From IMG/VR virus record IMGVR_UViG_3300046003_006230, positions 1 to 41,540 of that record: a DNA stretch of 41,540 nucleotides; one strand, written 5' to 3'. The stretch's first letter is position 1, and each line of letters starts with the position of its first letter. Under the pieces are notes generated by a model, which saw only the letters and a program-made list of their open reading frames with translations, did not search any database and had not been told where the DNA came from. The DNA comes from a virus. This document shows positions 308-37,217 of the stretch, one piece after another. Made by a program: the position numbers and the translations under genes.

Positions 308-2067
308 CCCCATTCAAATCTTGAAAAGTTATCCTCTTTGATAACTGTAAGGACGTTACTGACTCGTGACACAAGTTCTTCTCGATGACTGACTAGAAAT
401 ACATTTTTGTTTCTGTCTCGACTATGGGCTTTGAGGATTTCCACACTTTTTTCCAAGCCCTGAGGATCCAGTCCTTGATCAAGTAACTCGTCAACAAAAA
501 TCAAGTTAATGGGTTGGTTGTTGTTTTCCCAAATGTCTCGAAAACTCCAGCTCAAGCTGAGAATTAAACGGGTGCGTTCGCCGCGGCTGAGTTGATCAAA
601 ATCCATTTCTGTTCCCAAGTGAGTAATTTCCACGCCAAGATCATTTTGAAACTTCACTTGGTGAGGTAGGCCCACACGGTTTAGATAATCTTGCAAACGT
701 GTATTGAGATAGGCAAGATTTTGATCAATAATCTTTTTGCGGATGAAACTTTCTTTGTTGGTAAGCAACTTCAACAAAAACTCTTGGTGTTCACGTTGAC
801 TATTGAGTTGATTCAGTATGTTGTGGTTTATAGGTTGCAGTGTGGCTGTCAAACTGTGTTGTTGATCAAGATAGGGATTGGTTTCCTGTTGCAGCCGTGA
901 CATTTCCTGCTGAAGGTTTTCCATGCTGTTGAGATGGCTCAAAGCTTGTTCAAGATTATTGTATAAAGTGTTGGGTATATCAAAACTACGTTCTGCTTGC
1001 GCTAGTTCCTGAATGTATTCTTGATGTTGTTTAACTTCTAGATTTAACGGTTGCAGTTGTTGATCCAACTGCAAAATCTGTTGCTCAAGATTACCCAGAA
1101 TTTCTTTGTGATTGTGATCACTTAGCCCTTGCTGACACATGGGGCATTGTGCGTCTAATACTTGACGATAGTTTGCCATGTTTTTGTCTAGCTGAGTTTG
1201 CAAGTTAGTTACAAGACGATTTTTTCCTGTAAGCAAACGCTGTTGCTCGTTCCGTGCAGACTTGAGCTTGTCAACATCTACTCGATCTCTATGTGCTTGT
1301 ATTTCAACTTCAATATCTAACTGGCTCATGCTGTCAAGAGCTTGTTGAATGTCATTTATTTTGTCTTGATGTTGAACTTGCCATTTTTCACTGCGAGTAT
1401 TGAGATCAGCAAGTGTGCGAGCAATCTTTTCATTGCTGGCTTCAATGGTTTTTATTTTGAAATCTTCTTGATCTTGTTGTATGCGTGTTTCTTTAATGCG
1501 TTCCTTTAGCGTTTCAGCCTTGGTGCTAAGCATGGTAATCATCAAGAGTTCTTCGATGATTTCCCGTTGCTTGCCTGCACCTTGACTTAAAAATGGCAGG
1601 GTGTAAGTGTTCAACGCCACAATGTTGCAGAACATAGTATGCGTCATGCCCAGCACAGCTTCCACTTGCTTTTGAGTCTCGCGGTTTTCACCTTGAGCTT
1701 CATCAGTATCAGGACTGTTGACCATTTGATCGTTAACAATAAATCTAAAGAAAGCTGGTTTACGGCCGCGTTCAATGCGATATGTTTGACCATCGCGACT
1801 GAACTCCAAACAAACGCTCATGTTTTTGCTGTTGATGCGATTGACCAAGTTGTCTTTTTTGATATTGCTTAGAGCTTGGCCGTACAGTGCATAGCTAATG
1901 GCATTTAACAGCGTGGTTTTTCCCACGCCATTACGGTTGCCTTGACCACCCATGTCAAGGTTTTCCCCTAACACCAAAGTAAATCCGCTGCGAGTTAAAT
2001 CCACTGTTTGTGGAACAGTACCAACACTAAGGAAGTTGCGTATTTCTACATTGTGATATTGCAGCAT
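295..2067 (-). CDS. 46: gp46-like recombination endonuclease subunit (Rad50/SbcC family ATPase)
   Basis: This is the ATPase subunit of the phage Mre11/Rad50-type complex, which resects DNA ends for recombination-dependent replication. The 590 residues show the expected order: Walker A around residues 43-52 (GNRNGVGKTT), a long Gln/Leu-rich coiled coil, a zinc-hook CPMC at 308-311, a second coiled-coil arm, the ABC signature LSRGE at about 493-497, Walker B LIFVDE at 522-527 and the H-loop VSH at about 559-561. The length is close to T4 gp46 (about 560). Its ATG overlaps the stop of gene 47 by one base (TAATG), so the two subunits are translationally coupled. All catalytic motifs are intact. 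Confidence 0.96.
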   Translation of the reverse strand: MLQYHNVEIRNFLSVGTVPQTVDLTRSGFTLVLGENLDMGGQGNRNGVGKTTLLNAISYALYGQALSNIKKDNLVNRINSKNMSVCLEFSRDGQTYRIERGRKPAFFRFIVNDQMVNSPDTDEAQGENRETQKQVEAVLGMTHTMFCNIVALNTYTLPFLSQGAGKQREIIEELLMITMLSTKAETLKERIKETRIQQDQEDFKIKTIEASNEKIARTLADLNTRSEKWQVQHQDKINDIQQALDSMSQLDIEVEIQAHRDRVDVDKLKSARNEQQRLLTGKNRLVTNLQTQLDKNMANYRQVLDAQCPMCQQGLSDHNHKEILGNLEQQILQLDQQLQPLNLEVKQHQEYIQELAQAERSFDIPNTLYNNLEQALSHLNSMENLQQEMSRLQQETNPYLDQQHSLTATLQPINHNILNQLNSQREHQEFLLKLLTNKESFIRKKIIDQNLAYLNTRLQDYLNRVGLPHQVKFQNDLGVEITHLGTEMDFDQLSRGERTRLILSLSWSFRDIWENNNQPINLIFVDELLDQGLDPQGLEKSVEILKAHSRDRNKNVFLVSHREELVSRVSNVLTVIKEDNFSRFEWGYEG

Positions 2068-3089
2068 TATAGACTCTGATAAATTTCCACTAGTTTTTTA
2101 CAGTCAATAGTTTTGCTTTCAATACTGTTTAAGTGACTGATAACAATAGTGTCAACACTTTGAAAGTCTATTGCTTCATCTTGAAGTTCTGCAACTTCAT
2201 TACTCACAGCGGTTTGAAACGCCAGTTCATTAACTGGCCAAGCTGCTTGTAATACTTCACGTAGGAAAGTCATGTCAAGATAGTCAGTGTCTTGAGGAAT
2301 TTGCACTCTTACGTGATTTTGTGGTTGCAAATGACGCTGAGGATCATAAAGAAGATCTTGCAGAGTTAACACACGGTATCGTGGAGCTTGTGGCCATGCA
2401 ACATAACGTGGCTCATGATTTTTTTGCCAAAACATCATGCCACGCTCATCATCCCAAACATCACTGTAGTTGTGGGGAAATGCATTACCAATATAATGCA
2501 CATTGCCTTGAACTTGACGTTTGTGAAAGTGACCACTGAAAACGTATTTTTGCTTGGCTAAATGATTGCCATTTAGGTGGCCATGGTCGGGCATTTCCAC
2601 CATGGCATTCATTTTGAACCTTGGCAGTTCAAAATGACCCCAAATATAGGGAACAGAAATATCAACAACCTTTTTCCATTCATCTCCCACCAGCCAGGGA
2701 ACAAAAGCATGGTCGCCCACTGTGGTGATTTTATCAATCAAGTGAATGTTATCAAATTCTTGAATGTAAGGTATGCTGTGTATTTCCAGTTTGTCACGGA
2801 AATATAAATCATGATTGCCAATGATAAAAAATACATCATCAAAAGCGGCACTAAGCAAGCGCAAGCCGGCAACACTGTAGTTCAGCGTGGAAATATTAAT
2901 GGCACTGCGTACATGATGCCAGTCGCCTAGAAACACACATGTTTTACAACCTTGTTTTTGAGCCTGTTCTATAAACCACAACAAAAACTGTTCGCATTGC
3001 ATGTTATGCTCGCGACTGTTGTTTTTCATTCCAAAATGCAGATCGGTGAAAGCTGCGATGTTATCAAGTTGGGGGGTGCGATTTGTCAT
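2067..3089 (-). CDS. 47: gp47-like recombination endonuclease subunit (Mre11/SbcD family)
   Basis: Nuclease partner of gp46; family members are Mn-dependent phosphoesterases that process double-strand ends. The metal-binding motifs are in order: D16-x-H18 (TDLHFG), GDWHH at 55-59, GNHD at 91-94, GHFE at 151-154 and SGHFHK at 185-190. The 340 residues match the family length. The ATG at 3089 has no Shine-Dalgarno sequence; instead a 7-bp hairpin (3090-3106) abuts it directly, which may affect how much is made. The frame is open a little further upstream, but I see no better start. It is followed by gene 46 with a one-base overlap, the same nuclease pairing as in T4. Confidence 0.96.
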   Translation of the reverse strand: MTNRTPQLDNIAAFTDLHFGMKNNSREHNMQCEQFLLWFIEQAQKQGCKTCVFLGDWHHVRSAINISTLNYSVAGLRLLSAAFDDVFFIIGNHDLYFRDKLEIHSIPYIQEFDNIHLIDKITTVGDHAFVPWLVGDEWKKVVDISVPYIWGHFELPRFKMNAMVEMPDHGHLNGNHLAKQKYVFSGHFHKRQVQGNVHYIGNAFPHNYSDVWDDERGMMFWQKNHEPRYVAWPQAPRYRVLTLQDLLYDPQRHLQPQNHVRVQIPQDTDYLDMTFLREVLQAAWPVNELAFQTAVSNEVAELQDEAIDFQSVDTIVISHLNSIESKTIDCKKLVEIYQSL

Positions 3090-3195: not shown

Positions 3196-4992
3196 TTAAT
3201 CAGTTTTTTGTGCTATTTCGTTTTCTGTTTGTCTTGTGTAGCTGGGAGTAGATCCGTGCATTATTAACAAGTCATCACGAATGTTTTGGTTTCGTTTTTC
3301 AGTATTTAGTATTCGAGTAAATGAATTCTGCACTGCGGACGTATAATATGCAAATGGATTTTCACTGCGACTTTCGTCAAACTGTAGTCCTATCTGACTT
3401 AGCTGCAACAAAGCTTGTCCTTGCATTTCTTCATTATATGTATTGCCAGTTAGATAAACTTTTCCATTACGTCGTGCCACAAAGCAACCATATTCTGTTT
3501 CTGGACACCATACTTGTCCCTGGTAATATGTTGTTGGTTCGTTAGGATGCATGGCTTTACCACGTCCAGGATGACTTCTACCATTCCGTTTGCCGCCATG
3601 TAAGTTTAAACAAGCCCCGGTTGTGTTATTAGCTCGATTACTGAAAACATTTGTGGTAATACATTCTGTTTCTTTACCAAAACTTACATGAGTATGTTTA
3701 TGACTATTTGTTTTCTTACCTAATAAAGTGCAAAGAGCTTGAAACATGTCTGTTCGTCCTTGATCTTTTTGCACCCAGCTAACACTGGTTTTGCGATTCC
3801 ATCCATCACCGGCAATTAATGTTTGCAACAGCAGTTCACGTTGATCATTAGTAAGTTCCAGAATAAAACTCATAGGGATGTTTTTATTAGGGAATAAGTT
3901 TTCCAAAGTTTTACTATCTGACTTCCAAATTCTAAAGCAAATGTTATTTTTGCGCAGGTTTTCAGTGAAAGTAAAGTTTTGAGTTTCCAGGGCTTTACGG
4001 ATTTTATCAGCGTTGGCTCCGGGATTTTGATAGATAGCAATGCTTTTTATATTGCCTTGCCTATCATAATCATAGCAGCCTTCTGTTATTATCCAGCCCG
4101 CTAATTCTACCAAAGAATCTGCATATTGGCTTACATCATTTCCTTTTTCAGCATTGCCCATGACAACTATTTTATCATTTTCACAAATTTGTTCAATAGG
4201 TATTAAGCCACGAGCAGTAACTATTTTATGATTAGGTGTAATCAAACTATCAATGCTCCGACAAGTTACTTTGTGCATCAGACCATCAAAATCACCTCGG
4301 TAAATAGATTTGATTTTGCTCCACTTGAGATCTCCTGTTTCGTAACTTAAAATAATATCCGTTTCGTTAATTTCATTAGTGTTTAACCAACCCCTTTGAG
4401 TTAGAGCTTGAGTCTGATCATCAACGCAATAGCCCCTCCAGTTGCCTTTTTTACTGTATTTTTCCACAAGTTTCATAAACATCATGGCAAGCTTGGGTGT
4501 AATGTAACCATGGTTATTACAAAACTCTCCGTTTTGTAAACCACCACGCCAGTGACTTTTGCCCACACATACCCAACAGTCATTTGTCCAAATAAAATGT
4601 TGGAAAGCTGGAAAGTTTATTTTAATATGGCGTTCTGCAACAGTTTTTCCAATTTCGTGTTTGATGGGATGAGGTGGAATGTGATCGTAAGTCATTAATC
4701 TAACCACAACCTGTTCAATATCCAAGCTGTCAGGATCTACTCGATATACAGGATTTTTTTCACCACGAGCTTGCGCTTCTTTACGTAAACGTTGTGATTG
4801 CAGTTCAGCTTTGCGTATTTTAGCTTGCTCAAGAGTTTCAAGATTTATCAAGTTTAAATCTTGAGTTATTATATCAAAACTGCTGTAAATATTTTCCAAG
4901 TAGCTGCAATAGGTATTTTTGCTAGCGTGGATTTGTTCTAAGAGTTCACGGTTCGTTAAGTATTTGATTTTAATTGCAGCGGTTATAGTCAA
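3196..4992 (-). CDS. 55: gp55-like late-transcription sigma factor interrupted by an intein
   Basis: gp55 binds host RNA polymerase and recognises the phage late promoter TATAAATA. The extein halves are residues 1-188 and 518-598, which would join to a 269-residue protein. The C-terminal half (TYNEEMQGQALLQLSQ..., QFDESRSENPFAYYT, NTEKRNQNIRDDLL) is the conserved sigma region-2-like core of gp55 proteins from cyanophage-type T4-like phages. The N-terminal half has a possible metal site, C139-x2-C142-x15-C158-x2-H161. An intein of 329 residues sits between Y188 and T518, inside that core, so activity should need splicing. The start is a TTG at 4992, chosen because GGAG lies 7 bases upstream. 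A consensus sigma-70 promoter sits just upstream, as expected for a gene needed before late transcription. Confidence 0.93.
   Translation of the reverse strand: MTITAAIKIKYLTNRELLEQIHASKNTYCSYLENIYSSFDIITQDLNLINLETLEQAKIRKAELQSQRLRKEAQARGEKNPVYRVDPDSLDIEQVVVRLMTYDHIPPHPIKHEIGKTVAERHIKINFPAFQHFIWTNDCWVCVGKSHWRGGLQNGEFCNNHGYITPKLAMMFMKLVEKYSKKGNWRGYCVDDQTQALTQRGWLNTNEINETDIILSYETGDLKWSKIKSIYRGDFDGLMHKVTCRSIDSLITPNHKIVTARGLIPIEQICENDKIVVMGNAEKGNDVSQYADSLVELAGWIITEGCYDYDRQGNIKSIAIYQNPGANADKIRKALETQNFTFTENLRKNNICFRIWKSDSKTLENLFPNKNIPMSFILELTNDQRELLLQTLIAGDGWNRKTSVSWVQKDQGRTDMFQALCTLLGKKTNSHKHTHVSFGKETECITTNVFSNRANNTTGACLNLHGGKRNGRSHPGRGKAMHPNEPTTYYQGQVWCPETEYGCFVARRNGKVYLTGNTYNEEMQGQALLQLSQIGLQFDESRSENPFAYYTSAVQNSFTRILNTEKRNQNIRDDLLIMHGSTPSYTRQTENEIAQKTD
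3442..4428 (-). mobile_element. Intein with LAGLIDADG homing endonuclease inside gp55
   Basis: The 329-residue insert begins with Cys (CVDDQTQALTQRGW, block A) and ends VYLTGN, followed by Thr as the +1 nucleophile. Block B is visible as SLITPNHKIVT. The endonuclease core has two dodecapeptide motifs, LAGWIITEG and LLQTLIAGDG, each with its acidic metal ligand, so it looks intact. The residue before the terminal Asn is Gly instead of the usual His; some natural inteins tolerate this. Removing the insert restores a continuous conserved sequence (NWRGY joined to TYNEEM), which fixes both borders. It is in frame with no stop, so protein splicing, not a split gene, explains it. Confidence 0.93.
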
Positions 4993-5094: not shown

Positions 5095-6003
5095 ATGGGC
5101 CTAAGAAAATCTTCAAATCAAGCATCTCCGGGGCCTACTCAAGCCCCAGATATACAGCCTGCAGATGCTCCTGATACGTTCGAATCAGATGTATTTAAAC
5201 CCTTTAATACTTATAGCGAACTAAGCGGGGCAGTTTTAGGCGCACGATTTGCTGAAAGAAGTGTTGGTCGTGAAACACAACGACAGCTAACAGTAACTCA
5301 AAATGCATTGCAGGGAATAGATCCCACTAAACTAGAGGATACCACAGCCAACAATGCGGTTTCTGGGCCTAGTGCAACTGATTTGCGTGCTCGTTTACGT
5401 GCTAAGCCCAACAGCGTAGCATATAAGTTATTATATGCAGATAATCCTTGGGTTAACTTACAAAACTATGGTGGAATGATTTGGCCATATACACCAAATA
5501 TTACATACAATCAAGATGTACAGTATGATAGTCTTAACGCTGTTCATACCAATCAAGAAATTTTAGCATATAGTAGAACCAGTGCCCCAACTATCACAGT
5601 ATCAGGTAGTTTCAGCAGTCAAACTCAGCTAGAAGCCCGATATAATTTAGCCTGCTTGCATTTTCTGCGCTTGATTACAAAAATGAGTTTTGGTGCTAGT
5701 GTAAATCCACAACGAGGAACTCCTCCACCTGTGTTATACTTTGATGCGCATGGTGGTGGTATGTTTTTAAACATTCCTGTAGTTGTGAAAAATTTCGCTA
5801 TTACACTGCCTAATGATCCTGACTATGTTACTGTGACTGCTAGTCCGCAGTCTAAGGTAACAAGGGTGCCTGCAATATTTGATATATCTGTTTCTTTAAC
5901 AGTGCAACATACCCCGCGCCAACTGAGAGAATGGAGTATTGAAAAGTTCCGCAGTGGTGGATATATAACCAGCGTTTCCATGAAAAAAGCAGGATGGATA
6001 TGA
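5095..6003 (+). CDS. 48: gp48-like baseplate tail-tube cap protein
   Basis: In T4, gp48 sits on the central baseplate hub and starts tail-tube polymerisation. This 302-residue protein has a low-complexity Pro/Gln-rich N-terminus (residues 1-40). A compact domain follows, with WVNLQNYGGMIWPYTPNI and a tube-like beta region containing SAPTITVSGSFSSQTQLEARY. It ends near the FRSGGYITSVSMKKAGW tail. The assignment rests on overall resemblance to cyanophage gp48 and on its place directly before gp53. It is the first gene after a late promoter, and its stop overlaps the start of gp53. gp54, a related hub protein, is the main alternative. Confidence 0.75.
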   Translation: MGLRKSSNQASPGPTQAPDIQPADAPDTFESDVFKPFNTYSELSGAVLGARFAERSVGRETQRQLTVTQNALQGIDPTKLEDTTANNAVSGPSATDLRARLRAKPNSVAYKLLYADNPWVNLQNYGGMIWPYTPNITYNQDVQYDSLNAVHTNQEILAYSRTSAPTITVSGSFSSQTQLEARYNLACLHFLRLITKMSFGASVNPQRGTPPPVLYFDAHGGGMFLNIPVVVKNFAITLPNDPDYVTVTASPQSKVTRVPAIFDISVSLTVQHTPRQLREWSIEKFRSGGYITSVSMKKAGWI

Positions 6004-11960: not shown

Positions 11961-12128
11961 TTACGGTCCTATAATGATAAAAGGTCCAAAAAAGTAGTTG
12001 ATTGGGGCAAATAAGATCACAAACCCCAACCAAAGCATAGCAACTACCAGCATGGGCAAGCCCAAAACTCGTGTGACACTGATAGCTAAGGGAATCCAAA
12101 CAAACAGCAGTAGAAATAAAGCGACCAT
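11961..12128 (-). CDS. 55-residue double-membrane-span peptide
   Basis: A very strong Shine-Dalgarno (AAAGGAGG) precedes an ATG at 12128. The 55 residues are almost entirely hydrophobic: span one at about 2-18 (VALFLLLFVWIPLAISV), a short TRVLG turn, span two at about 24-42 (PMLVVAMLWLGFVILFAPI), then an aromatic end FFGPFIIIGP. It starts 10 bases after the SNF2 helicase stop and ends 4 bases before the Cys-rich membrane protein start, so the three are one transcription unit. Holins and exclusion peptides can look like this, but there is no specific match. Confidence 0.72.
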   Translation of the reverse strand: MVALFLLLFVWIPLAISVTRVLGLPMLVVAMLWLGFVILFAPINYFFGPFIIIGP

Positions 12129-12138
12129 TTTTCCTCCT

Positions 12139-13731
12139 TTACTGGCCCAGATTCAAATCAGCCAACTCGCGGTTGGCGCCGCCATCAACAACTGCATTGC
12201 TCACAGCCGCCTTGCTCATGATCAGTTCACCTATGTCCTCTTCCACAGTGCCCTCGGCAACAAGATTGTAAACAGTGACGTTGTCCTGCTGCCCGATGCG
12301 GTGAACACGATCCGCAGCTTGGATGAGATCACCCGGGGTCCAAGGCAGCTGGAGAAACGCACACGCCCGCGCCGCAGTGAGCGTGATGCCAAAGCCTGCA
12401 CTGGCAATGTTCAAGACAATCACCTGCACATCATTGCGAGTTTGGAAGTCCTGCGCTGCCTGGGCACGCTGCTCCAAGCTAACACCGCCGCGAATCACTC
12501 GCACGCCGATATTAGCCGCTGCGAGACGTTCAGCAACTTGATCAACCATGCGCTGGTGATGTGCAAACACCACAAGCTTTTCACCCTGCTCGACAAAGTC
12601 CATGATCCATTCCACGGCATTGTCCAGCTTGGCATATGCAGCAATCTCACGGCACTTGCCCAGCGCCACGATGGCTTCGTCGCTCTTGGCAGCATTGCCG
12701 CCATGCCGAACCAGGGTTTCCATGCCCTGCTTCCAAGCGCCCGAGCCCTCAAAAGCGGCTGCTACAGCATCATACTCAGCGCGATCAAACTCCAGGGGAA
12801 CCGTAACAAAAGTCTTGGGCGGCAAATCCCGGAGCACGTCCTGCTTGAGACGACGCAGCATGCAAGTTTCAGTCAACAGCGTGTTGATCTCGGCTTCGTT
12901 GCTGCTGCCGTTAAAGTCCCAGCCCCAGCGGGTCTTATGGGCATTGCAGAACTTAGAAGCAAAGTTAAAAAAGTTTTCAAACTGCGGCACCCAGCCAGCC
13001 AACGTGTTCACAGTTGTCCACAGCTCAACAGGCCGATTCAACATGGGCGTGCCCGTGCAGAACGTCACATGCGGCACAGCATCATGCACCGGACGAAACT
13101 GGCCACGCTGCCGGGGAATTTCCTCACGTCCTGTCACCAGCCGCAAAAAAGCCTGCGTGCGATGGGCTTTGGGATTTTTGATCTTGTGGCTTTCATCAGC
13201 CACAACATAATCGTAGTTTTGCGCTTCCAGTGCAGCCAGGTTGCGCTCGACAATGTCGTAGTTGATAAGGGTTACATCATAACCCGGCTGCGGTACACGG
13301 CTGAAACTCACATGCGGCCATTGTGCCCTAAGCTGCGCCTGACGCTTTTTGCTGGGCACAAAGCCCACAATCAGCACGCTGAGCTGGCTGCCCAGCATGA
13401 GCGTGATTTCCCGCCGCCAGTTCAAGAGCAAGGTCTTGGGCAGCACCACCAGCATGGGAAAGCGGCGGTTTTGCCAAGCATACACCATGACCTGCGCGGT
13501 CTTGCCCAGTCCGGGCTCATCAGCCAGCAGCACGTTGCCGTCCCAGCGTTCGAGATAAGCCACGCCATGCGCTTGATATTCCTTGAGCTGAAAACTAAAG
13601 CCCGGGATATCGCAAGCCTGCGTGTTGCTGTTAAGCACGCTAACCAACGCATCCGGCACGGGCAAGCGGTGCTTGACGCACAGCTGATACACCTTGCGGG
13701 CGTTGGGCACTGTAGCGGAAACGTGAAGCAT
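12139..13731 (-). CDS. SNF2-family DNA helicase (SMARCAL1-like annealing helicase)
   Basis: This is a superfamily-2 ATPase of the SNF2 group; relatives of the SMARCAL1 type rewind DNA and remodel stalled forks. The 530 residues hold both RecA-like lobes: motif I DEPGLGKT at 71-78, motif II DESH at 179-182, motif III CTGTPMLNRP at about 225-234, a helicase C lobe (VVFAHHQRMVDQ, then VIVLNIASAGFGITLTAA) and motif VI DRVHRIGQ at 474-481. There is no HARP domain in the polypeptide; one is encoded divergently at 14032-14754. The gene is plainly GC-richer than the virion genes (36 of 60 bases at 12301-12360, 27 of 60 at 20701-20760). This suggests separate origin. It has its own promoter and leads into two small membrane-protein genes. 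Confidence 0.93.
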   Translation of the reverse strand: MLHVSATVPNARKVYQLCVKHRLPVPDALVSVLNSNTQACDIPGFSFQLKEYQAHGVAYLERWDGNVLLADEPGLGKTAQVMVYAWQNRRFPMLVVLPKTLLLNWRREITLMLGSQLSVLIVGFVPSKKRQAQLRAQWPHVSFSRVPQPGYDVTLINYDIVERNLAALEAQNYDYVVADESHKIKNPKAHRTQAFLRLVTGREEIPRQRGQFRPVHDAVPHVTFCTGTPMLNRPVELWTTVNTLAGWVPQFENFFNFASKFCNAHKTRWGWDFNGSSNEAEINTLLTETCMLRRLKQDVLRDLPPKTFVTVPLEFDRAEYDAVAAAFEGSGAWKQGMETLVRHGGNAAKSDEAIVALGKCREIAAYAKLDNAVEWIMDFVEQGEKLVVFAHHQRMVDQVAERLAAANIGVRVIRGGVSLEQRAQAAQDFQTRNDVQVIVLNIASAGFGITLTAARACAFLQLPWTPGDLIQAADRVHRIGQQDNVTVYNLVAEGTVEEDIGELIMSKAAVSNAVVDGGANRELADLNLGQ

Positions 13732-13758
13732 TTCAAGCCCCGTGATGCACTGTAGTCA

Positions 13759-15307: not shown

Positions 15308-15315
15308 TATAAATA
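15308..15315 (+). promoter_or_regulatory. T4-type late promoter for gp25-gp6-gp7
   Basis: An exact TATAAATA element gives a predicted transcript start near 15321. It therefore also decides the gp25 start, which must be downstream (TTG at 15351) and not at the upstream end of the open frame. Confidence 0.83.
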
Positions 15316-18700: not shown

Positions 18701-19150
18701 CTGCGCAGTGTTTTTTCAGGCTTGGAAGCATTTAAAACCATGACCGACCAAATAATATGGCATCCAGTGAAATATAAAGTAATATTTGGAAATCAAGCTC
18801 CTCAAGAACTACAAGTGCGTTTCAAAGTCATCAAAGCATCGGGCACCACAGTAACTGACAATGAAATTAAAAGTCTTGTTATAGGAAGTATTAACGAATA
18901 CTTTAGTTTGATTAACTGGGACTTTGGACAAAGCTTTTTCTTTACCGAACTTGCTGCTTACATACATATAAGATTAGCACCGGTTATAGCCAGCGTGGTT
19001 ATAACTCCTTTAAATACTCAAGCACAGTTTGGCGATTTGTTTGAAATCAAATGCCAACCTGATGAAATATTCATTAGCAGTGCTAGAGTAACTAACGTAG
19101 ATATTGTACAAGACTTCACCAACGCAACACTGGGTATAACACATGGCTAA
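15737..19150 (+). CDS. 6: gp6-like baseplate wedge protein
   Basis: In T4, gp6 dimers form the inner ring linking the baseplate wedges. This 1,137-residue protein starts with the conserved N-terminal domain (FDTIRAAMVDYIRLTYPEDFNDWIESSEFVAIIDLLAYLGQ split over residues 35-75, then AFRMDLNTRENFIETATRRESI). The C-terminal end is a gpJ-like baseplate domain (NEIKSLVIGSINEYFSLINWDFGQSFFFTEL). It is about 480 residues longer than T4 gp6 (660). The extra length is beta-rich Asn/Ser/Thr/Gln sequence at roughly 550-950. The last 8 bases overlap the next gene, so coupling is likely. Confidence 0.92.
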   Translation: MAVTQQQRQSQLFYAQDWRVIYQAFSEVNFAAYDFDTIRAAMVDYIRLTYPEDFNDWIESSEFVAIIDLLAYLGQSLAFRMDLNTRENFIETATRRESIIRLARMLSYNAPRAMPSQGLLKITTVITNQDLYDATGQNLKNVPITWNDQNNADWLEQFILVINSSLNSNNYFGNPVKSGIVNGIATELYQMNTNNNGSSVFPYTSNTAGNTMDFELVNPDFSIADITSVATSTSGIFYERAPNPTNSWYLIYRSDGLGNTSANTGFFLMFKQGQQGYTDYQLDYPVANRVLDVNVNGINNIDVWVQNVDSQGNVLKDWTAVSSVNGFNVIYNSLNKNVRDIYSVYTRDSQGQDQISIRFADGNFGSVPTGFIRVTYRQSNGLAYQVRPVDMQNINFAFTYNDNLNNSFNLVLSASLQTTVANSQLRASNQQIQLAASQNYYTQDRMVTGEDYNVFPLTNTQALKVKAVNRTYSGQSRFLNINDPTGTYQNIKLVSTDGILYDEPGTNKVEVSVANTQNSLALVTNYIQPMLTGSQGQQRVAQEVKDFYYYYYPRANLQSQGTTVWQTATSSSQISTGALYQGNVAQTVGSNVSVSSVFHVVAPGALFYANNTWCEVTAVNQQGVGTNNGLLSTGQGAISITPPLIANTIGYQPTEIIASWNPLFNAQETSDIQTALDRKNKFGIRYDYLNAQWKVITSGNINPGAWSLSNSGDTTNTNRDSSWLLLAAFTGSTWTFTARAQRYVFESVRDVRFLYNTQYKTIDINTGDVKQDSITVLDINTAPQDPTTTTPAPALGANYIWRILGQDIYPDGYVDNTKVYVSGENNPLGLPLNPNQYDIIVDPENIAQRMIFWTLVPTSDGYEYWQPRVIPTSRIYTYANQLPPASDPLWSQGEVAYVMTTGQFYQWIRRGPSGELLLVTNSWKMKIGRRGLKWIYDHYAPNEQRIDPAIMNIVDIYVLTSTYDTDLRNWIATNAPASAEPQAPTSEQLRSVFSGLEAFKTMTDQIIWHPVKYKVIFGNQAPQELQVRFKVIKASGTTVTDNEIKSLVIGSINEYFSLINWDFGQSFFFTELAAYIHIRLAPVIASVVITPLNTQAQFGDLFEIKCQPDEIFISSARVTNVDIVQDFTNATLGITHG

Positions 19151-22100
19151 TCGCAAAATAGTAGAGTTACTTCCTCAAGTTAATCAAACAGCAGCATTAA
19201 CGAAGTTTTTCAATGCCACTGTGGACCATTTGTTCCAACCAGAAAACAGTGAGTTTCTAGCTGGGTATGTGGGCAGTCATCCAGTCTATTACAATCCTGT
19301 TACAGATTTTTATGTTCCCGAGCCCACTAGCGATAGAGAAAAATATCAACTTTCACCCACTGTGGTCAGTCGTGATCCACAAAATGGTGCAGTGCAAAAC
19401 ATTTTGTTTTATGATGACTTGTTAAACAAACTGCGGTTGCAAGGTGCAATAACTTCAACTCCCGAGCGTTTGTTTAACAATCGCTACTATAGCTGGAGTC
19501 CTCCAGTAGACATCGACTTGTTTTTAAACTGGAATCAATATCGCTGGGTTCCACAAGGTCCTCGACGTATTGATTTGCTTGATGTAACTGACTTTTATCA
19601 AAATATTCGCGGGCAGTCAAGTTACACTTACACTGGCAGTTATGCAATAGCCAACGCTGATGGCAGCAATGGAACATCACAAACAGGTTCTATTATTTTT
19701 ACAACAGGATTGAAAATAAGATTCCTAGCTGACAGTCGTCCTGAATACAACAACCAGGACTGGATAGTTTGCAATGTTGGTGAAAAAATCCTACTAGTGA
19801 ACGACGATTGGGCAAGTGATGTCACAAATGGTTTGCGAGTGTTTGTGGATCAAGGGCCAATATATCATGTGCAAGAACGTGGAACCTTAAACGGCAACAG
19901 TTATAGTTTAGCCAACAGATGGTTCCATTTAGATGTCTTGAATGTCAGCCAAACACTGGCTGTGGAAAATCCACAAAACAGCCTAACTGAAACTTTTGCC
20001 CTGCCTCCGCAACGGCCTATTTTGCAATATCTACGCAACTTGGAGTTAGGGAACCAAGGCACAACCAGCCGTGGTTATATTAACTTCACAAGCAGTGATC
20101 CCAACTTTATTGCAACTTACACAGGGCTTGCCAATCCCGCAATAAATGGTCGATCTTTGCAAGATGGTGATTTAATCTTGGTTATAAATGATCAGGATTC
20201 TCATGTAAACAACAGAATATACCAAGTAAGTGGTTTATCCACTATTGGACAATGTGTGTTAACCGCACAACCGCGCTCACCCTCGGACAGCAGCACACTA
20301 GCACAACTGGGTGATCAAGTTTTATTGATAGAAACAACAGGTGCTATTGAGACATGGCACTATACAGGTGCGTCTTGGCAATTGGGACAAAGTGTATCGA
20401 CTGGTAGTCGTCCACTTTGGATGCTTTATGATGGTTCCGGCATTGCCTTAAATGATCTAGGTGCATACCCCGGTAGCACATTTACAGGCAGCTTGTTGTT
20501 CAGTTATCAAACAAGCGACTTCCGCACAACAGATGCTTATTTGGGTATAAGTGTGGAACTAAATGAGTTTGGTGATTGGATATTTGAAAACCATCAACAA
20601 ACTGACACGTGGACATATTTGCTTGACAACATTGCCACAGCGATTGGGGGCTGGAAATATTCCCGCATAGCTGCTGATGATTTTGTCCCGGAACAATATG
20701 CCAACGGATGGTATCAAGCTCAAAGTGACAGCCGACAGTATCTTGATTTGCAATACGTCATGGATCAAGGAACACTTTTGGGTGTAGGCGAGCAAAACAA
20801 AGTATTTTCAGGTTTAGCTTATCCCAACAATGCCCTGCTCATGCCCACAGGCGTGGAAATACCTGCTAATGAGGCAAACGATGTCCCCAGTGTAAATGTC
20901 ATTAGAAATCGTCAAGGTGTTCTCTCACAGTTGTTGCAAAACACTGATTATAATGTCGAGAACACCAGTGTTGTCTTGGTCAATAATGCTCAAGAGCAGG
21001 ATAGATATTTTATCAGCGTTTGGAGCAACAACCAAGTGCCCACAACACAACAAGGTGTTTGGCAGACACCCTGGAACCTAGCTAGAAATCCCAACAACCA
21101 AGATATAAGTGCTGTAAGCCGTGGTGAATACCTAGAACATTTGTCCAGCATGATAGCTAATCAAACTGGTTTTACTGGTGATAGTTTGGGATTTAATAAC
21201 TGGCGCGATACTGCCAGAAATCCCAGCCTGGGCACTTATATTTTACAACACAACGCACCCATGCTCAAACTAGGGGTATTAAACTCTACTCCGCAAACAG
21301 ATATTAACAGTATTACAGGCTATACTGATCCACAATTGGTGATTACTTGGGCTGACAAACAATATCAAACTTTTTACAGCCGTTTTATCAATTCCCTATT
21401 CAATCTCAGCGCAAATCAAGGCTACAATCTAAATCAAAATCCGCAAGTTTGGGTGCAAGATGCCCTGCGTCAAGTAAACTTGGGTAAAACTGCTCGAAGT
21501 CCCTGGGCCAACAGTGGGTATGATTTAACTCAACCAGCTGGTGCATATTGTTCACAGCAGGCAACAACCAGCACTTGGATACCTGCAACTGGCACTCGAT
21601 TGGGACTCGCAGGTGCATATTATCCTCGCGTGTTTGTTGATACAACACAGCCAAACAATCCCTTGGTAATCCAAACACACGATGGTGCGGAAATAACCAT
21701 GATTGACAGTGATGGATTGCCCTTAGCTGAGATTACAACAGGCGCAACTGCAACTAGCAATCCTGCATTGTTAAGTTCAGGAATAGCAGCAGCTTGGTTG
21801 CAGTTTGAACTCAACCTTTACAATAACCTGCTGCCAAAATACAGTAATCCTGACAATCAAGTTACATACAACATTACCACTCGCCTGCCCGGTAAATGGC
21901 GCACAAGTGATTACACCCGCGCTGAAATAATCCAAATACAACGTCCCATGTTTGAACGCTGGGCTGTTGCAAACCAAGTTAATGTGTCAGCAAACACAAG
22001 TTTTGATTTGAACGACCAGTTTAGCTTTAACTATCGCACAGTCCCTGATCTAAATGGTCAACCTGTGCCAGGTTATTGGCGTGGTATCTATCAATTGTTT

Positions 22101-25100
22101 TACGATACTGATCGTCCTGACATTCGCCCCTGGGAAATGTTGGGCTTTAGTCAACAACCCACATGGTGGACTGAAGAATATGGTGTATTACCTTACACAA
22201 ACGGCAACACCAAATTATGGCAGGATCTAAGTGAGGGATTGATACGTCAAGGTAGCACTGCTGGCTATTGGCCTGCATGGGCACGTCCGGGACTGTTGCA
22301 GTGTATCCCTGTTGGCACTCAAGGTGAGCTTTTGCCTCCGCTTGCAGCTGGTATAGTTCAATATTTGCCCAGCACACAAGCAGCGGCAAGTGAATGGGAT
22401 TTTGGTGACGGTGCTCCAGTTGAACAAGCATGGAGAAAAAGTCAAAGTCGCACATTTACTCAGGCATTTACAGGATATTTGACAAAACCCGCTGAGTTTG
22501 TTGATATCAACTGGGATGTTGCACGAACAGAAACTCTGTTTGCAGATACTCCCTGGCCGCAGTTTGTTTATACAGACACACAAACAAGAAAAAGCAGCGG
22601 AGAGTTCCTAGCACATAGAGAAAATCCCAGCTTGCTGAACCTACCTGCAAGTTTAAGTGAATATCAAACAACCACTTATTTTGGTAGCTGCGGATTACAG
22701 CATTGGTTCAGTGAATACTTGGTCAGCAAAGGACAAGATGTAACCAACTACCTTGGCAACGTAATACGAGGCACAGACGTCAATCTTGCCCACAAGTTCG
22801 CTGGTTATGTGCAAAGTGACACACTGCGAGTGTTAGTTGATAGTTTTGGTCAAGTGAACTTCAGCAGTCGTATTGTGCCTGCTGAAAATCGCAATGTCTA
22901 CTTGTATAGAAGCGGTAGTATAGGTGAATATTTTTACAGTGGCGTTGTTGTACAGAAAGTAACTGGTGGCTACAAAGTATTTGGTTATGACAACAACAGC
23001 AGTGCCTTCACTGTTATTCCTCCTAACGTTGCTGGGCGTCGACAAGTGGAAACTCTCGGTAACTTGCGAGTGACATTTTGGCAACAGGGCTTGGATACAA
23101 CAGAAACTGTGCTTTATGGAACAGTGCTTGAAACTCCTCAGCAAGTTGTAGACCTAGTAACAGGGTTTGGACGTTGGTTGACTGCCCAGGGTTGGGTTTT
23201 TGATAGAGTAAACGATGACAACGGACGCATAGTTGATTGGCAATATAGTGCCAGAGAGTTTGTTTATTGGTGCCAGGGATCTTGGGGCAACAACAACTTT
23301 ATTGCTTTGAGTCCCGGCAGTAATCAAGTTACACTACGACGTCTAACAGGACAAATACAGTTTGTTCCCGGCACTATTAGTGGTGTTTATCCCATACTTA
23401 ATAAAACAGGCACACCCATAGTTGAACGCAACTTGGAAACGCTACGTGAAGATACAGAAATAACCATTCGCCCCATAAACACTGATACTATTTTTGGAGC
23501 ACGGTTGTTTGTCAACACACTGGAACATGTGATGATTTTAGACAATGTCACACAGTTCAACGACATAGTTTATCAACCTTTATTTTACCAATATCAACCA
23601 CGAGTAAAGGTTTACACGCATAGAACACGAAATTGGACTGGACGTTTGGATGCGCCGGGGTATTTTCTTGTTCCGCAAGCTGGTAACACCTGGGCTTTAA
23701 CCAGCAACTTTGATAAAACAGCCAAGGATTTCACCAGGTTTTTCAACATTGATCAAGCTAAACCCTATACTGTGAAAATAAATGGAACAACAGCACAACA
23801 AGAGTCAATTAACAGTCAAAGTGTAGTAACCAATCCTGTTTTGAATCGCATGGCTAAACATCAGTTTAGTTACCAACAACGCGATTATCTACGTGATTTG
23901 CTGTTGGAAGATGCCACAGAGTTTGAGTTTTTCCAAGGATACATCCGACAAAAAGGCACATTCAACAGCTTGGGCGCTATACTGCGAAACACTGGATTGA
24001 TTCCTCAAGATAGCACATTTGATTACTTTGAAGAATTTGCCCTGCGTTTGGGACAGTTTGGTGGTGTAGCGGTCAACAACCTAGTGGAGTTTTATTTAAA
24101 TCCACAAGATGTAACCAACACCATACAATGGATCAACTTGTTCAGTAGTGTTGATGCCGATATTCCCAGTGATGATGTATTGAGTATTACACCCGGTGAC
24201 AGTCGTATTGTAACTCCTCCCACAAGTTATGTGACCAACCGTTTTCCTCTACGAGACAGTTATCAACCCCAGCCAGCTACTGATGTTCCCACAGCAGGTT
24301 ACGTGCAACTGGGTGAAACATCTTGGCAAGTTTTTGACCAAACTGAGCTTGTGGCACTTTGGGACGACAAACTCGGCAGCACGCGCCCCGTTGCAGTAAA
24401 CGACACAGTTTGGCAGTTCAGCACAGCATCTGGCAGTTGGACAGTTTGGGCGCTGCTAGACACTGGTTTGACAATTAATCGAACACTTAGCAGTCAAACA
24501 ACTGCCAGCCCCACAACTGTGTTTGTAAACCAAAGCCTTACACTTGCCGACAACGATATCATTGTGTTGACATGTGTTCAAAACGTAGCTGCCTTGACTG
24601 GCACATTCACTGTCAGTGCTGTTGATGTCTCTGCACAAAGTTTTCAAATAGATATAAGCACTTTTGAAAACGGGCAAGGTGGTAAAATCTTGAAATACTA
24701 CCCCATAAGATTTACCAACGTTGCTCAGCGCGATGCATTTGCCACAACAGAACCCCTGCCACAAGGGCTGCGTGTGTTTGTGGACCAAGGCGATCAAATA
24801 ACCGGTGCTTGGACTGTATATGCACGCATTGGCACCACATGGTTGCCCATACGTAACCAAACACTCATGGTGGACAGCCAACTCATGCAAAGTTGTGTGC
24901 TGTTTACCAGTGCTTATAATCAACCCAGCACTGTGTTGCAATACTTTGATCCCATTCAAGGTCAAATACCCAGCTTGGCTGAACAAGAACTTGTTTACAA
25001 GCGTGAAAACGATCCTGCTCAATACAACAAAAGCATAAATGATGAAATTGACTTGCAGGATGATCAAGCTTGGGCTGATGAGCATGTGGGTGAAACTTGG

Positions 25101-28100
25101 TGGGACTTGGGCAGTGTGCGTTATGTGGATTATCATCAAGGTGATTTAAAATATCGCATACAGCATTGGGGCCAACTGGCTCCTGGCTCGGAAGTATCAG
25201 TTTATGAATGGATTCGCAGTCCAGTTCTGCCCACAGACTGGGCAAGTTTAGCAGCCGCAGGACAACCAGTTACTTTGGAAGGCGTGACTTTTATACCCAG
25301 CGGTGAAGTATATAACCCCAGCGCACCTAGTTGGTGTGAGCAAACAATCTATACCAGTGTGGGACGAGCACAAATATGGTATTATTTCTGGGTGAAAAAC
25401 AGCACCATGCAACCTGCTGCGGCTTGGCGCCGACTGACCACACAGGAAATCAGCAATGTTATAACCAACACTGGCAATCAACAAATTCCCTGGTGGGCTG
25501 CTATCGATAGCACCAACTTGCTAGTAGCCAATGTGCGTAATAAGCTGGCTGGCAGTGCAAAAATACTGCAAGTTGCTTGGCAGGACGCCAGTGAAGATCC
25601 CACTGTTCACAGTCAATGGCAGTTGTTTAGACCCGGTGACAGTCGCAGTGTAATTCCTCAACAGTTTTGGCAACGTTGCATTGATAGCTTGCTGGGTTTT
25701 GACGGTTTAGGCAACGATGTTCCTGATTACAGACTTGCTGCACCACAACGCTTGGGTAACTTAGTTCGCCCCCGTCAAACATGGTTTCAGGATCCCATAG
25801 CAGCAGGCGCTAACTTTGTCACTGTAGCCAACGCTCTCATAGCAAACTTGGATGACCCTCTTGTAACCGATCCCAACAAGACAACTTGGCGCAACTACTT
25901 TTTCTCACAAGAACCCGTGCCTGACAGCAGCCAGTATGACTTTGTTGTGCCCACTATTGCAGATAGAGACCTATTAATACCTGATTTGTATTTGGGCGCA
26001 CGAGTTTTAGTCACAGCAACGCCCTGGGCAATTTATCAATGGCAAGGTGACAACATTTGGAATTTGTTGCAGTTGCAAGCTTGGAACACTGAGCTTTACT
26101 GGCAATATGTTAACTGGTATGCCCAAGGTTACCTTGCCACAAGCACAATATCACAAACTGTGCCCTTGATACGCGATCTAGATGTTATTGATGGCACTAC
26201 TGTGGAAATAGTTAAAGTGCTTAATGATGGAACTGGCAAATGGCAATGGTATGCCTGGCTGGACCAACAGTGGACTCTTGTTGCACAACAAGATGGCAGC
26301 ATTGAAATCTTGCCCAGTGTTTACGACAACAGCTTGAACAACTGGTGTTGGGACCAAGCTGCTTTTGATAGCACATTATTTGATGCATCACCTGCACCTT
26401 GCTTTCAACAAATCATTCAGGGCTTGTTGGACGTTGTATTTGATGTTTTACAACAAAACACGTTGTTTACCAGCATGTTGAACTATGTGCTAAGTGAACA
26501 GGTGTTTGTGGATTGGTTGACTAAAACACGCTATGTGACTTTGCGTGGGTTTGGTGTGCCCTTGAGCACCAGTGTGTTGTATCAACAAGATGAAGTCAAC
26601 AGTTTGTTGGCTTATGTAAATGAAATCAAACCCTACACTGCCAAAATACGTGAGTTTATCAACAGCAGAACTTTGCTTGATTCAGCATCGTTCCGTGTAA
26701 CAGACTTTGATAAACCGCCCTATCTGTTGGCCAACGGCACAACTGAAATATTAGATGAAAACAACGCTCAACAAGCTGCTTACATGGCCAACTCAACTCG
26801 ATATAAAGATTGGTTGGCTCAATACCAGTATCAAGCTTCAAGACATTTAATAAGACAACCAAATATCCGGGTGTATTTTGATCGTGTTAGCAGTGAAGCT
26901 TATGGTTGGGACTATGTTTGGGAAGATATAACTGGATTCTCTAAAACAGAAGACGGTGAAAACTGGGGGGCGGCGGCTCGCATACGCAATAGCTATCAGC
27001 CTCAACCACAAATGCCGCCTATTAGCGACATAAAAGAACTCCTACAAGCACAATACAAGGGACTAATACTGGACTCACTGCCCTTGAACTGGGGTGAAGG
27101 TTGGAACTCAACTCCTTGGAATCATTACACAGGTTGGGACAGCAACAGCGACAGCATTTATGATTATCTTGATGTAATCATCAGCGGTGGTGAAATACCT
27201 GAATACGATATATTCACTCCTGAAGCTGGCGGTAGCAGCAGTTTTAACTTGAGTTATATTCCACAAGGTCCCAGTCAGACTGTGGTGTGGATTGACAGTG
27301 CAATAGGTGTATATGGTCAAGATTGGATAATACCCAACTGGGTAACTCAAGCGCAACCAGTTGATCCTGGCTTGGGTTATGCTGTGGGTAATAGATTGTG
27401 GGTGACTGGAGGAACAAATCTTGTTCCTGCAGAACTGGAAGTTGCCACAGTAAATGGCACAGGTGGGATTTTAACTTTAACTGTAGTTGACCCTGGAGCA
27501 TGGGACATTTGCCCACTAACTCCTGTTGCGTTAATACCCAAGCCCTATACTGGTGTAACAGGAACAGGTGCAAGTGTGCTTCCACAATGGGGCGGCAGAC
27601 ATTTGGAACTCACTGCACCTACAACCAACAAAGTATATGTGTTGTTCCATGGACAAACATTTAATGCAGCACCACTTGGTGAATATGACACTGTTTACGA
27701 CGGATACAACTTCCTACAGCCAGATGTAAATGACAATCGTCCTCCCGAACTAGCTGTGGTTAGAATACCAGAAAGTCAAAAGTTTAATATATTCCAGCAA
27801 CAGCAGGATGGATTTACTGTTGCCAACAAGATTTACACAACAAACAGTGCTGTAGTTCATTACAACTTGGGCGTAGTTCCCATTAACAACTCATCGGTCA
27901 TTGCTTGGCAAGCTGGTAACTTGTTGACTGTGGAACAGGACTTTTTCGTCAACTATGCAACTGGTAATTTTGTTTTTGTCAATCCTCCAGTTGCAAACGA
28001 ACAACTTGTTACATGGAGTTTTGGGGGAACAGGTGCTGGAATCACTACTCGCAGTGTAAAGATTGATAATCCTGGATCAGGATATTTTTCCGGCAACATA

Positions 28101-34436: not shown

Positions 34437-34467
34437 CACTGCGACAATTGAATCTGTGGAGGGTGAC

Positions 34468-36665: not shown

Positions 36666-37217
36666 TTACGTGTAAGTTTCTTTTACAGTGATTAAATCCG
36701 GGGACCAAGGCAAATAAGGTATCCAGCTTCTATGTGGAATAGTAATAGGCCGCTGGCAGGCAATAGCAACTAGTTGAAAGTAGTCGGGTTTTATGGGTCT
36801 TACACGTGGCTTTAAATGGGTTTTATGCCCTTTGACACTGTTGCAATGTCCGCACGCACTGACGACGTTTTCCCATCGTGTGATACCGCCTTTTACACGT
36901 GGTAAAACATGGTCCACTGTAACTGACTGCAAATCCAATGCACATCCGCAATACTGGCACTGGTGTCGATCACGCATGAGCAAGTTGCTGCGACTGTATC
37001 TAACTCCGGGTTTCTTGCGAATGTATTTGTTGCATGCCATGACACTGGGAACTGGCCAGCTTTGCCTAGTGCTGTGTATTCTCCAGTCTTGGTAAAACTC
37101 CACGGGACGAGTTTCGTCACCAAACCACGAACGCATGGCATCTTGCCAGTTACGTGTGCTTAAAGGAATCACGCTTAAAGGCGTGAAATCCTGATTCAAG
37201 ATCAGAGTATGTGCCAT
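36666..37217 (-). CDS. HNH endonuclease
   Basis: The 183 residues contain a classical HNH/zinc core: C87-x2-C90, the D102-H103 pair in VDHVLPRVKGG, N117 in RWENVVSACGHCN, and C122-x2-C125. The flanking N-terminal 75 residues (LILNQDFTPLSVIPLSTRNW) are typical of free-standing HNH proteins found in many bacteria and phages. It may act in DNA packaging, host DNA cutting or homing; nothing here decides which. No broken host gene flanks it, which weighs against recent homing. A promoter (37248-37276) lies upstream, but no clear ribosome-binding site. Confidence 0.9.
   Translation of the reverse strand: MAHTLILNQDFTPLSVIPLSTRNWQDAMRSWFGDETRPVEFYQDWRIHSTRQSWPVPSVMACNKYIRKKPGVRYSRSNLLMRDRHQCQYCGCALDLQSVTVDHVLPRVKGGITRWENVVSACGHCNSVKGHKTHLKPRVRPIKPDYFQLVAIACQRPITIPHRSWIPYLPWSPDLITVKETYT

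Follow-up and report, generated by a model that had tools for sequence, protein, structure and literature searches.

A mobile intein, probably spread by its own endonuclease, in the late sigma factor gene gp55 of a phage

The late sigma factor gene gp55 of the phage analysed here most probably carries a mobile and mainly selfish intein, which is spliced out of the protein and spread by an endonuclease that it encodes itself, a reading to which we assign a probability of about 0.9. The gene lies on IMG/VR virus record IMGVR_UViG_3300046003_006230, whose 41,540 nucleotides form the window referred to throughout; the window provides a single copy of the element and the ends of the 41540-base record are not closed. 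According to the proposed mechanism, gp55 would be made as a 598-residue precursor that is not expected to dock on RNA polymerase. Cys1 of the intein would attack the bond that joins it to Tyr188 of the N-extein, Thr+1 would receive the N-extein and Asn329 would cyclise, giving a 269-residue gp55 and a free endonuclease of 329 residues. During co-infection, the free endonuclease would then cut the intact site in gp55 genes of phages without the intein, and repair of the cut site would copy the intein across.

An insert with intein motifs interrupts gp55

The open reading frame at 3196–4992 (minus strand) encodes 598 residues and reads through with 0 stops. Its N-terminal part matches phrog_12791, ‘sigma factor for late transcription’ (E 8e-76), its C-terminal part matches phrog_234, ‘late sigma transcription factor’ (E 2e-15), and a profile of gp55 relatives matches T4 gp55 (PDB 7d7c, 7d7c_F; E 1e-18). 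Judged by these matches, the host gene of the insert is a gp55-type late sigma factor. The next genes, at 2067–3089 and 295–2067, match SbcD- and SbcC-like families. RaK2 and MIJ3 also have gp47- and gp46-type genes after gp55, as does B23, there with small ORFs in between, and in Atu_ph07 a recombination endonuclease gene follows gp55.

Positions 3442–4428 of the minus strand translate, free of stops, into exactly 329 residues, CVDDQTQALTQRGW...VYLTGN. These constitute residues 189–517 of the precursor, from Cys1 to Asn329, with NWRGY upstream and TYNEEM downstream (Table 1). The lengths are thus 188 residues for the N-extein, 329 for the intein and 81 for the C-extein, with a computed length of 269 residues for spliced gp55. 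Block F contains VWC and the intein ends in LTGN. A preliminary description of the window had reported an insert of 329 residues with Cys1, block B, two LAGLIDADG motifs and a terminal Asn, all of which, coordinates included, translation confirmed exactly. Its interpretation, an intein with a LAGLIDADG endonuclease inside gp55, is supported by the motifs, the structure model and solved inteins.

The first 15 residues of the intein, CVDDQTQALTQRGWL (4384–4428, minus strand), are identical in the window copy and in the mini-inteins of L010 and L013, despite the whole inteins being only about 46% alike. Either strong constraint on block A or a recombination joint could account for this identical start.

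Table 1. Positions of the gp55 exteins, the intein and its motifs in the window
Feature	Positions	Strand	Basis or remarks
N-extein of gp55, 188 aa	4429..4992	-	TTG start, GGAG before start; phrog_12791 match
Intein, 329 aa, Cys1–Asn329	3442..4428	-	Translation, alignment, structure model, solved relatives
C-extein of gp55, 81 aa, +1 residue Thr	3199..3441	-	phrog_234 match; stop codon 3196–3198
Block B of the splicing domain, TPNH (intein residues 64–67), His67; B:12 is Ile69, not Trp	4216..4251	-	
Putative LAGLIDADG homing endonuclease domain, intein residues 100–267	3628..4131	-	VIA-align to I-DmoI, Z ~15; PF14528, E 2e-4
First LAGLIDADG motif, LAGWIITEG, residues 109–117, acidic Glu116	4078..4104	-	Aligned column
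Second LAGLIDADG motif, LLQTLIAGDG, residues 200–209, acidic Asp208	3802..3831	-	Aligned column
Block F, VWCPETEYGCFVARR, conserved Cys308 (F:4)	3469..3513	-	Cys in 57/57 representatives
Block G, VYLTGN: Thr327 (G:5), penultimate Gly328, Asn329	3442..3459	-	Thr 56/57, Gly 55/57, Asn 57/57

Several other features of the window were recorded. The sequence TATAAATA, which we take to be the core of the T4 late promoter, occurs three times, always on the plus strand (5063, 15308 and 34429). It lies 24 bases before an ATG at 5095 and 19 bases before a GTG at 34456; the occurrence at 15308 is just within an ORF listed from 15282, the true start of which may be further down. Three occurrences are not above chance, as 16 of 100 shuffles of the window reach this number. 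A 585-codon open frame at 11998–13755 (plus strand) runs antisense over a helicase gene (12139–13731, minus strand) and is probably an effect of composition, and an unusually large single ORF of 3629 residues occupies 19143–30032 (plus strand). A separate HNH endonuclease ORF at 36666–37217 (minus strand; phrog_16726, E 5e-27) is possibly a second mobile element of the same phage.

The insert is modelled as an intein with an endonuclease domain

An AlphaFold2 model of the intein, built on 13 aligned relatives, reached a pLDDT of 90.6 and a pTM of 0.89. Its best solved matches by VIA-align are inteins along the whole model, led by TliVMA (7qss; Z 24.6, 292 residues, rmsd 3.5) and including the endonuclease-bearing PI-PfuI (1dq3; Z 21.9) and PI-SceI (Z about 18–19). 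Residues 100–267 align with I-DmoI (VIA-align Z about 15) and, with the two motifs and their acidic residues, identify this part as a probable LAGLIDADG endonuclease. Among the matches that cover the splicing domain alone, AceL NrdHF ranked first (6zgq_B; Z 17.5, rmsd 2.0, 139 residues); other mini-inteins align with this domain too, and Ssp DnaB, gp41-1 and hedgehog align to the model with VIA-align Z of about 14–15. The insert is accordingly modelled with the Hint (hedgehog/intein) fold.

In the PDB, a sequence profile of the 13 relatives matched the mini-intein of Spl DnaX (E 6e-5) and, more weakly, AceL NrdHF (E 0.0015). In Pfam, the window copy alone matched LAGLIDADG_3 (PF14528) at E 2e-4, just below the gathering score, and gave no splicing-domain match at E up to 1; Intein_splicing was matched by seven of the 13 family members at E up to 0.1, the best at 7e-7. 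A phmmer search of the PDB with the window intein alone returned no convincing relative, the matches being two antibody fragments (E 0.014 and 0.027) and one weak intein match (E 0.51).

Conservation was assessed on 57 representatives, the window allele among them, which were drawn from 101 complete locus entries (the same contig is often repeated) by way of 62 distinct inteins. Four gp55 loci with incomplete flanks (L223, L239, L269 and L270) were dropped before this count, and L280–L282, which concern another intein in another gene, were excluded from the gp55 counts. All 57 have a nucleophile at position 1, a TxxH block B, a terminal Asn and Thr or Ser at +1. More precisely, Cys1, Thr64, His67, Cys308, the terminal Asn and the Tyr at -1 are each found in 57/57, and the +1 residue is Thr in 49 and Ser in eight. 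The insert is in frame, and some homologues lack it, with a precisely empty junction. The preliminary description had also named a transcript-level intron as a possible explanation of the insert. This is unlikely because the window gave 0 Rfam matches at the gathering threshold and the frame stays open through the insert, whose intein catalytic residues are conserved across relatives; an RNA intron was therefore rejected.

The endonuclease acids were counted from aligned columns of the 54 full-length representatives. The Glu116 column holds Glu in 52, Asp in one and Asn in one; the Asp208 column holds Asp in 52, Asn in one and Ala in one. A few relatives thus have altered acids, and some copies may not be mobile. 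The second motif is altered in some relatives (IDSDRW in L111), which, together with the dependence on a single window copy from a record with unclosed ends, would suit a dead element, either a pseudogene or an intein with decaying splicing and endonuclease functions. We regard this as very improbable, given that the window copy keeps the conserved splicing residues and both acids, and that six near-identical contigs (L001–L006) show 0–4 differences in the intein out of 4–11 over the whole gene, with no stops. In T4 gp55 is essential, so a failure of splicing should be lethal.

Splicing class and the penultimate glycine

A nucleophilic Cys, Ser or Thr at position 1 is the mark of class 1 inteins, and the invariant Cys1 points there; class 1 seems the better filing for the window intein. 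The penultimate His that is usual, though not obligatory, in class 1 is replaced by Gly in 55 and Ser in two of the 57 representatives. This residue was not treated as defining, because class 1 phage inteins that lack it are described in PMC5050341.

An alternative route is that of class 3, in which Cys308 (F:4) would attack first and Cys1 would act secondarily. Two of the three WCT residues are indeed in place (Cys at F:4 in 57/57 and Thr at G:5 in 56/57), and AceL NrdHF, the top structural match among those covering the splicing domain alone, is a class 3 split intein in which MCT replaces WCT. However, Trp occupies B:12 in 0/57, and class 3 inteins as presented in PMC5050341 and PMC3196547 have no nucleophile at position 1, where Cys is invariant here. 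Class 1, moreover, also includes inteins with Cys at F:4, which are polyphyletic according to PMC3196547. The class 3 route is thus considered unlikely.

It had been suggested from the window alone that Gly at the penultimate position might slow Asn cyclisation. This finds no support, as Gly is the normal residue in this family and the Bethlehem RDF intein, a class 1 phage intein with the same penultimate residue, is reported in PMC5050341 to be fully spliced at time zero, whereas its Gly-to-His mutant required more than 5 h for about 50% splicing. Penultimate Gly as damage or a brake was therefore rejected. The Bethlehem RDF intein is one precedent and not a rule, because other inteins with unusual penultimate residues respond variously to the introduction of His, as the same source describes.

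The insertion site lies in the core-binding part of gp55

Alignment of 11 gp55 proteins, five with the insert and six without, placed all inserts between the same two residues, equivalent to Tyr63 and Thr64 of T4 gp55 as counted on the profile alignment to that protein. The sigma-2-equivalent domain of T4 gp55 spans residues about 42–122, and the β′ coiled coil is named as the gp55 docking site (PMC2988020). With the sigma-2-equivalent domain split by the insert, late transcription is expected to require splicing, in keeping with the dependence proposed in the preliminary description, and the position of the site makes it likely that the precursor is unable to act. An AlphaFold2 model of the whole precursor (pTM 0.61) was too loose to place the intein on gp55.

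Full-length, mini and empty states of one site

A scan of IMG/VR keyed on the intein found 189 relatives, and the best 80 of these 189 all lie in gp55 (80/80). A scan keyed on the 81 residues of the C-extein found five occupied and 75 empty sites among the best 80 of at least 589 confirmed relatives. The other scans overstate prevalence, because the intein served as their key or entered their ranking. Within one locus set of 180 gp55 ORFs, 30 have the insert, 121 have an intact junction and 29 show neither pattern; among the latter, L009 and L014 start inside the intein and 27 are proteins of 179–204 residues without an insert of such size. A search for gp55 inserts at the same site, as proposed on first inspection, thus showed the junction to be occupied in 57 representatives, the window included, and precisely empty in others, which argues against a chance insert.

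Where the site is occupied, a full-length state of 322–346 residues (54/57) exists alongside an endonuclease-free mini state of 151–180 residues (3/57; L276 and L277, on the contigs of L011 and L013, and L120). The insert of the L010 type has 152 residues. In the empty state, L119 reads straight through the junction as NWRGYTYNDEM. Compared with the occupied L109, its gp55 DNA is 84% identical upstream (564 nt) and 80% identical downstream (243 nt) with no gaps, rising to 94–96% in the 50 bases nearest the site.

Of 102 annotated phage records with matches to the complete precursor, 60 were listed, and B23 alone of these 60 has one match spanning both gp55 junctions; among 671 records matching the B23 precursor only B23 itself is covered by at least 80% in one place. 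A scan of genomes from bacteria and archaea (A2) produced 64 pattern matches, none of them a relative.

The earlier idea that the rate of splicing acts as a timer of late transcription could hold but is unsupported, and the frequency of empty sites suggests that gp55 does not need such a timer. In a fuller form of this idea, the intein would have been co-opted into a post-translational gate, where precursor builds up early and either the spontaneous rate or the redox state of Cys1 and Cys308 sets the start of late gene expression. The precursor should be inactive with the site in the core-binding domain, the three mini-intein representatives still keep the conserved splicing residues without an endonuclease, and both cysteines are invariant; in a mycobacterial DnaB intein, redox control of a catalytic Cys is described (PMC6195587). 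However, mini-inteins can come from simple decay of the endonuclease, 75 of the best 80 loci in the C-extein scan lack the intein, the tested phage intein with penultimate Gly is fast rather than slow (PMC5050341), and the partner of the catalytic Cys in DnaB is, according to PMC6195587, Cys48 and not Cys1. A gate is thus quite unlikely. It is very unlikely, too, that in some lineages the gp55 intein has become more than a parasite and the mini-inteins persist through conditional splicing, for example if oxidation of Cys1 and Cys308 governed the release of late transcription in a suitable cell state. If true, conditional splicing of gp55 would mean that a developmental sigma factor of a virus is under a protein-splicing checkpoint.

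The intein is both transferred and inherited

Our preferred reading, a mainly selfish mobile intein, draws on pairs of loci in which intein and host gene differ in their likeness. Extein identity and dS in these comparisons refer to the final 150 residues of the N-extein together with the initial 90 of the C-extein. In four pairs from six loci (L274/L275, L218/L224, L225/L229 and L218/L225), inteins that are 91–93% alike reside in gp55 proteins that are 63–66% alike, with an intein dS of 0.13–0.44 and an extein dS of 1.79 or saturated. Three of the four pairs are not independent, because they share the cluster L218/L224/L225/L229. The reverse is seen in L237/L243, whose exteins are 96.7% alike (dS 0.44) and whose inteins are 58.7% alike with saturated dS. 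Like inteins in unlike gp55s, together with the reverse case, imply that the element moves independently of its host gene, and the pattern fits homing by the encoded endonuclease.

The contigs of L274 and L275, L116 and L117, come from the same metagenome. Between them the endonuclease has an omega of 0.13, similar to the 0.10–0.14 of the splicing parts, which indicates that the endonuclease part evolves under constraint in this pair. The phages of L116 and L117 have another intein-like segment in a different gene (L280, contig IMGVR_UViG_3300019487_000018, and L281), and the C-terminal part of the L280 ORF matches a nucleotidyltransferase family (phrog_388).

The extein tree groups the window gp55 with the mini-bearing L010 and L013 (support 100/99), whereas the intein tree splits the mini-inteins of L010 and L013 from the window and all others (100/100). 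Among the 13 rows of the intein tree, only this split and the L116/L117 pair form well-supported branches. B23, L116 and L117 sit on very long branches in the extein tree, whose bootstrap was unsettled. On the best version of this tree, with 76 rows, presence and absence require six changes, four of them forced by well-supported branches. Over 1596 pairs, intein identity correlates with extein identity (Pearson 0.59, Spearman 0.49), and N-extein with C-extein identity (Pearson 0.72, Spearman 0.56). The correlation of intein and extein identities implies that much of the descent is vertical, and the element is therefore inherited as well as transferred.

Comparison with known inteins

An annotated counterpart is found in Synechococcus phage B23 (MN695335, b23_0289), an isolated cyanophage that is among the 57 representatives and whose gp55 has a 340-residue intein at the same gp55 residue, 37.7% identical to the window intein over its whole length; the gp55 proteins themselves are only about 25–30% alike. 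The host of B23 is given as a Synechococcus-Cyanobium cyanobacterium, and the B23 genome announcement presents phage B3 as a 99.1%-identical sister. The B23 record names the gene a ‘hypothetical protein’ and annotates it with ‘phage T4-like gp55’, and the word ‘intein’ has 0 occurrences in the announcement. Phage inteins of portal, TerL, PolI, methylase and ThyX proteins (Belphegor, GMA3, DP SC_2, Bobi, P1201 and others) lie in different host genes and at different sites; a further 30 records of this kind cover the whole intein at 21–30% identity. Seven of these phage inteins were inspected and all seven have Cys1, the block F Cys and the penultimate Gly, although they were picked by similarity and are not an independent count.

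In the open-licence literature, to which the search was directed, no description of an intein in gp55 or another phage late sigma factor was found. The Bethlehem RDF gp51 intein is likewise class 1, phage-borne and endonuclease-bearing with a penultimate Gly, as described in PMC5050341. It differs in its host gene, and its splicing was tested experimentally. Class 3 inteins such as MP-Bethlehem DnaB and AceL NrdHF share Cys F:4 and Thr G:5 with the window intein, which differs from them in keeping Cys1 and in having Ile rather than Trp at B:12. Elements of this kind are well known, and what appears to be new is the host gene, the site and the coexistence of three states. The site allows its alleles to be compared against similar backgrounds, full-length against mini in gp55s that are 88–96% alike in protein (the window and L010) and full-length against empty in gp55s that are 80–84% alike in DNA (L109 and L119).
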